A stretch of 53,473 nucleotides of DNA from positions 1 through 53,473 of the forward strand of contig SBBG01000127.1 in assembly GCA_005240065.1 (NCBI GenBank). The letters run 5' to 3'. The translations under genes were made by a program, and so were the position numbers. The notes under the pieces are model-generated. The model ran no database searches and had not been told where the DNA came from. It worked only from the letters and a program-made list of their open reading frames with translations. Position 1 is the stretch's first letter; every line of letters starts with the position of its first letter. Shown one piece after another: positions 21,580-21,715 of this stretch. The stretch is from Gammaproteobacteria bacterium (GTDB lineage: Bacteria; Pseudomonadota; Gammaproteobacteria; Ga0077554; Ga007554).

Positions 21580-21715
21580 TATTAACCCAGCAATCAAATT
21601 TATCTGCTTTGCCAGCTTTTCTCCCGGGGGTAGGGTGTGCGCCGCGCGCAGGTGCGTGAGGCGCACCCTACGAAACAACCGGGTGATGACGATCCATTTG
21701 ACTGCCGGGTTAATA
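21580..21715. repeat. Copy 2 of the palindromic repeat, full length with terminal inverted repeats
   Basis: The 136-bp element has 20-bp ends TATTAACCCAGCAATCAAAT (21580-21599) and, inverted, 21696-21715, matching at 18 of 20 positions. Inside lies the core palindrome 21630-21671 (GTAGGGTG...CGCACCCTAC). The size, ends and lack of coding capacity suggest a non-autonomous miniature element. It occupies most of the spacer between the divergent metal operon and prmC. Confidence 0.75.

Follow-up and report, generated by a model that had tools for sequence, protein, structure and literature searches.

Among the closest described systems is QMITE2 of Coxiella burnetii, a 150–190 bp MITE whose inverted ends enclose a GTAG REP; a single genome carries both full-size and small (REP-only) forms, and the element serves as a target for an insertion sequence. 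Its small copies are read by the authors as truncated MITEs (PMC5896051). In Anabaena variabilis, dimers of the GTAG-15 REP lie within a longer palindrome beginning with TATA, which was not found without REPs and has no assigned transposase (PMC3733652). GTAG REPs and REPINs are otherwise known as pairs of GTAG palindromes present in many copies together with a RAYT gene (PMC2817692, PMC3116915, PMC3733652), and a REP on both sides of the transposase gene is the defining REP/RAYT arrangement (PMC2817692, PMC3733652).

Set side by side by description, QMITE2 and the element analysed here are both MITEs with inverted ends around a GTAG REP. However, direct repeats of 7–11 bp are described for QMITE2 and no parent transposase is named for it, whereas the present element has IS630 ends next to TA and a core that, unlike in QMITE2, can be traced as a REP that is older and independent, with its RAYT encoded in a sister genome. 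No 7–11 bp direct repeats were seen by eye in the flanks of two-armed copies. Like the Anabaena dimers, the REP pair here sits within a longer palindrome, but the arms are also found around other interiors and have an IS630 partner. It likewise resembles GTAG REPs and REPINs in being a many-copied pair of GTAG palindromes with a flanked RAYT (in a sister genome), except that many pairs here ride inside another transposon's ends. IS630 elements themselves (one in a viral contig and a plasmid copy in Azotobacter salinestris, below) share ends of the form TATTAAYCMGGC... beside TA, but encode a transposase, whereas the present element is non-coding. Correia elements (NEMIS) of Neisseria are short, IS630-type and target TA; their ends probably differ from those described here and are not known to enclose a REP pair. 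They too are counted as MITEs (PMC3733652).

A MITE containing a GTAG REP has therefore already been published (QMITE2), and the nesting is known; new here are the assignment of the arms to IS630 with an autonomous match, the independence and greater age of the core within the family, and the recurrent one-armed form. We read the element, with a probability of roughly 0.8, as an IS630 (Tc1/mariner-like) MITE moved in trans, with a GTAG REP pair inside that was captured from an older repeat, and with a right arm that has often been lost.

Copies in the window

The window is the whole 53,473-bp stretch analysed, contig C95 of the 2.68-Mb draft genome (99% complete) of an uncultured bacterium; its PrmC is 69% identical to that of a gammaproteobacterial MAG, the closest record to bear a name. 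A full copy with 20-bp terminal inverted repeats and an internal palindrome had been predicted at 21580–21715, and both are present: the 136-bp sequence (TATTAACCC...GGGTTAATA, core GTAGGGTG...CGCACCCTAC) aligns with a 144-bp consensus, than which it is 8 bp shorter, bases 1–20 match bases 117–136 at 18 of 20 positions, and the first REP (GTAGGGTGTG) carries one change. Its parts are as follows.

21580..21715, + strand: full two-armed MITE copy, alignable with the consensus over its whole length; a TA sits just within either outer end
21580..21599, + strand: left terminal inverted repeat, IS630-type end, 18/20 paired with the right end
21600..21629, + strand: internal portion of the left arm (TTATCTGCTTTGCCAGCTTTTCTCCC...), which almost every copy conserves
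21630..21671, + strand: REP pair, head to head (GTAG...CTAC); the repeat is also found without arms in sister genomes, and next to a RAYT gene in one of them
21672..21695, + strand: inner part of the right arm (GAAACAACCGGGTGATGACGATCC), absent from one-armed copies
21696..21715, - strand: right terminal inverted repeat, pairing with the left end

The core recurs at all seven other places for which it had been proposed. Arm similarity was scored against 2000 random window stretches; the outer arms expected at four of these places were recovered (p 0.0005–0.0055), while none was detected at 19814, 22579 and 30316 (p 0.11–0.92).

26218..26323, + strand: diverged copy, left arm (score 34, p ~0.0025) and core, right arm unrecognisable
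29222..29270, - strand: fragment, one REP and part of the left arm (score 15, p 0.0055)
41369..41450, + strand: fragment, REP pair and right arm (score 20, p 0.0005), running into the start of a porin gene
42575..42676, - strand: one-armed copy, left arm (score 34, p ~0.0025) and REP pair
19814..19886, + strand: REP pair without arms, no arm similarity on either side
22579..22599, + strand: single REP without arms, no arm similarity
30316..30378, + strand: REP pair without arms, no arm similarity

The placement of all eight copies in spacers or at their edges is acceptable as a description, except for overlaps of the 41369 copy with the beginning of a gene for a phosphate-selective porin (PF07396) and of the 26218 copy with the beginning of an ORF listed for a Ppx/GppA gene. 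At the former (41369–42559), the right arm of the fragment provides two in-frame ATGs (41417, 41432) at the porin start, and the element may supply the start of the gene and the beginning of its signal peptide.

Copy number and consensus across the genome

Across the genome, the 136-bp query hit 46 times, with some copies counted on both strands; when the retrieved loci were searched at lower stringency, 46 separate copies emerged, those of the window included. As copies were retrieved locus by locus, the total over all forms is a lower bound. The 46 copies were aligned to give the 144-bp consensus, whose 20-bp termini are inverted repeats of each other without a mismatch (TATTAACCCGGCAATCAAAT). 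The 18-bp end (TTAACCCGGCAATCAAAT), made up of the inner bases of this repeat and with up to three mismatches allowed, is present at 75 sites (36 + 39) vs 0 for the reversed control, and TA lies directly outside TTAACCC at 52 of the 75. Flanks of the copies are unrelated and their ends sharp at dozens of places. The element is thus short (136–144 bp), non-coding, multi-copy and bounded by 20-bp inverted ends, as is a MITE. Dozens of copies with common ends, TA-bounded arms, unrelated flanks and a transposase with the same ends elsewhere bear out the original prediction of a non-autonomous element that spread between genes.

IS630-type ends

The 18-bp end has an exact match in one viral contig (L127), where an element of 1111 bp (7191–8301), bounded by TA plus TATTAACCTGGCAAATAAAT and TATTAACCCGGCAATCAAAT, holds one 345-aa gene; one end of this element is identical to the MITE repeat (20/20 bases). 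The protein is an intact IS630 transposase (NF033545, 220.7 bits; DDE_3, PF13358, 8.8e-37) with plasmid-borne relatives in Azotobacter salinestris (77% identity, element end TATTAATCCGGCAATAAAAT), Neptuniibacter (49%, TATTAACCCGGCGGTAATTT), Thauera (46%, TATTAACCCGGCCCTTAAAT) and Acidithiobacillus caldus (45%, TATTAACCAGGCCCTTAAAT). The plasmid ends share an invariant TATTAAYCMGGC, after which the sequence differs according to the transposase. When an IS630 element inserts, it duplicates TA, which fits the TA beside the MITE ends; judged by sequence, these are ends of the IS630 family. An empty site for the viral element was searched for and not found, and the MITE had no match in plasmids, phages or viral contigs.

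The transposase with the same ends that had been anticipated is thus found in the viral contig and not in the MITE's own genome, where a profile search returned none above cut-off, although in a draft it may be unassembled; the sole IS630 profile match lies antisense to proB. The MITE is therefore an orphan here, and its movement by IS630 is something that we infer. As a possible autonomous parent, pairs of ends 3.7–3.8 kb apart (C223, C130) were rejected, since they span ordinary genes and no transposase. ISL3-like ends beside MITE arms (C40, C197) were likewise discarded as a parent, because the end also occurs at C58 with no arm beside it; the first two represent insertions into MITE arms. 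The ISL3-like end (GGGTCTTCGTGAAAG) occurs in two copies at the same base of the MITE left arm (L055, C40:33925; L059, C197:145), with different flanks and both at contig ends, the armless copy being L107 (C58:6834), and the arm may be a preferred target of this element. Several MITE copies (L021, L039:6360, L043, L056) are bordered or broken into by an IS5-like end (AGGGCACCTCTAAAAATTCGATCA); the IS5-like ends beside copies are likewise neighbours.

Matching arms also surround other interiors. At two loci of the same genome (L053, L062) they enclose hairpins of the CCCTCTCC type in place of this core; a further such copy (L023:6753) adjoins the only intact RAYT gene of the genome. Two genomes of another family of the class (G128, 11 end sites; G242, 7) carry elements of ~280 bp with other palindromes inside and ends (TTAACCCGGCAACCAAAT; L125, L126) that differ from the MITE ends by one base. 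Elsewhere (L119, G362:C1:1088508), an exact 18-bp end stands directly before a CRISPR-like array with the repeat CTCATCCCCGCATACACGGGGGGAAC.

One-armed copies

About half of the copies (about 25) comprise the left arm and core and stop at CTACGAAAC|T, and for these a plain MITE model has no explanation. They end sharply at a C|T junction five bases outside the REP; sequence beyond CTACGAAAC is unrelated between copies and right-arm scores are at background level. Left-armed copies stand to right-armed ones at ~25 to 2, an approximate ratio as some solo matches come from two-armed copies in which one end has degenerated. The two forms (18 two-armed and 25 one-armed copies) are mixed in a tree built from the part common to both, with 15 changes between forms (most forks weakly supported), and the nearest copy is of the same form for 16 of 43. 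The base following GAAAC is T in 15 of 24 one-armed copies vs 2 of 18 two-armed copies (Fisher p 0.001), the consensus junctions being GAAAC|T and GAAAC|A, respectively. Given the mixed tree, the one-sidedness and the junction bias, loss of the right arm seems to be recurrent, one-sided and at a fixed base. Neither a mobile one-armed unit with its own clade, as the forms are mixed in the tree, nor random truncation, as the loss is one-sided and at one base, is supported for these copies. At one locus (L013, C54:348–1052), similar stretches (GACGGAATGAGTTTA and GGCGGAATGAGTCTAG) flank a one-armed copy, which gives the impression of a gene start duplicated on its two sides.

RAYT cutting beside the REP is a possible cause of the loss, but suggestive only, because the RAYTs described so far work on a single strand and leave the inverted REP alone; hairpin-driven deletion is a live alternative. 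Cutting beside REPs by RAYTs takes place at CT, and for one group-3 RAYT at CT and CA (PMC8266576). A composite with two engines, in which IS630 would have spread the arms together with the REP pair while a RAYT took off the right arm by repeated cuts beside the REP (C|A or C|T), is an idea worth retaining, if doubtful.

A further reading, distinctly unlikely, takes the element, whether entire or one-armed, for a REPIN-like unit that a RAYT would move via single-stranded DNA, its inverted ends being incidental. The REP pair in the middle would agree with this, as would the sharp C|T junction five bases outside the REP, CT being the dinucleotide cut by RAYTs (PMC8266576), but the perfect 20-bp ends are shared with an IS630 element, the one-armed copies form no clade of their own and the core moves without arms elsewhere.

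The REP core as an independent repeat

The core (GTAGGGTGCG...CGCACCCTAC) is a pair of GTAG-type REPs. Exact pairs (GTAGGGTGCG-N0..60-CGCACCCTAC) number 76 in the genome vs 0 for the control, with 32, 28, 8 and 4 in genomes of the sister genus and 2, 0 and 0 in a third genus. When 55 further genomes were queried as relatives, matches were confined to the core and the bases bordering it (query ~45–107). They came from four genomes of the sister genus, from one of the family's third genus (weakly) and from one that belongs to another family; the arms had no match in any of the 55. One sister genome (G006) carries a PF01797 transposase (RAYT) gene with the core REP on both sides. A RAYT cognate to the core REP was not found in the MITE's own draft genome, whose sole intact RAYT (NF047646, 197 bits; L023:6086–6628) is flanked on both sides by another REP (GTAGGTTGGGC / GTAGGTTGGGCTGACGAAGGAAGCCCAAC). 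The core is a separate, older and more widespread repeat in the family.

These findings go against the view in the original prediction that all copies belong to one MITE family and that the core-only copies are the same element decayed to its hairpin. Fragments with partial arms do exist (29222, 41369), and the authors of QMITE2 take their small copies likewise (PMC5896051). However, the core stands without arms in sister genomes and with its own RAYT, exact pairs reach up to 32 in genomes devoid of any arm, compared with the 76 here, and no arm trace remains at 19814, 22579 or 30316, which are therefore best read as REPs proper. General decay fares no better, as the truncation that does occur takes one specific arm at one specific point, and we consider this explanation very unlikely.

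Folding is strong (z -5.3 vs shuffles for single-stranded DNA of the window copy; z -7.9 for RNA of the consensus) because of the inverted ends and the REP palindrome. That the repeat is a conserved, immobile RNA hairpin (a terminator or mRNA-stability element) is scarcely credible, as, despite this folding and the mostly intergenic positions, the copies have sharp IS630-type ends and unrelated flanks at dozens of places and the arms are absent from sister genera.

Proposed history and significance

The reading of the element as an IS630 MITE with a captured REP pair would imply the following history. A REP and RAYT system, older and arm-free across the family, would have existed first; a single MITE then presumably acquired a REP pair in its interior, and the combined element spread in the lineage. 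The 20-bp ends were probably recognised in trans by an IS630 transposase that is now absent from the genome, with cut-and-paste movement into TA sites between genes, duplicating TA. In many copies, the right arm would later have been lost at CTACGAAAC|T, immediately beyond the REP pair, apparently on more than one occasion and by a cause that may lie in either process named above. Points that count against this reading are the lack of a transposase in the same genome, the presence of TA before TTAACCC at just 52 of 75 sites and the one-armed copies, for which a plain MITE model does not account.

Here one mobile repeat is nested in another in a form that is clear and can be counted, and the transposase of either layer can be assigned to a class. 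The case also bears on the interpretation of QMITE2-like families, as 'full' and 'small' copies can share a hairpin core for reasons other than decay. The repeated loss of one arm at a constant base next to a REP is a hint of RAYT cutting in living cells; if the two-engine composite were true, mobile copies would have been made immobile, one transposon system disarming another.
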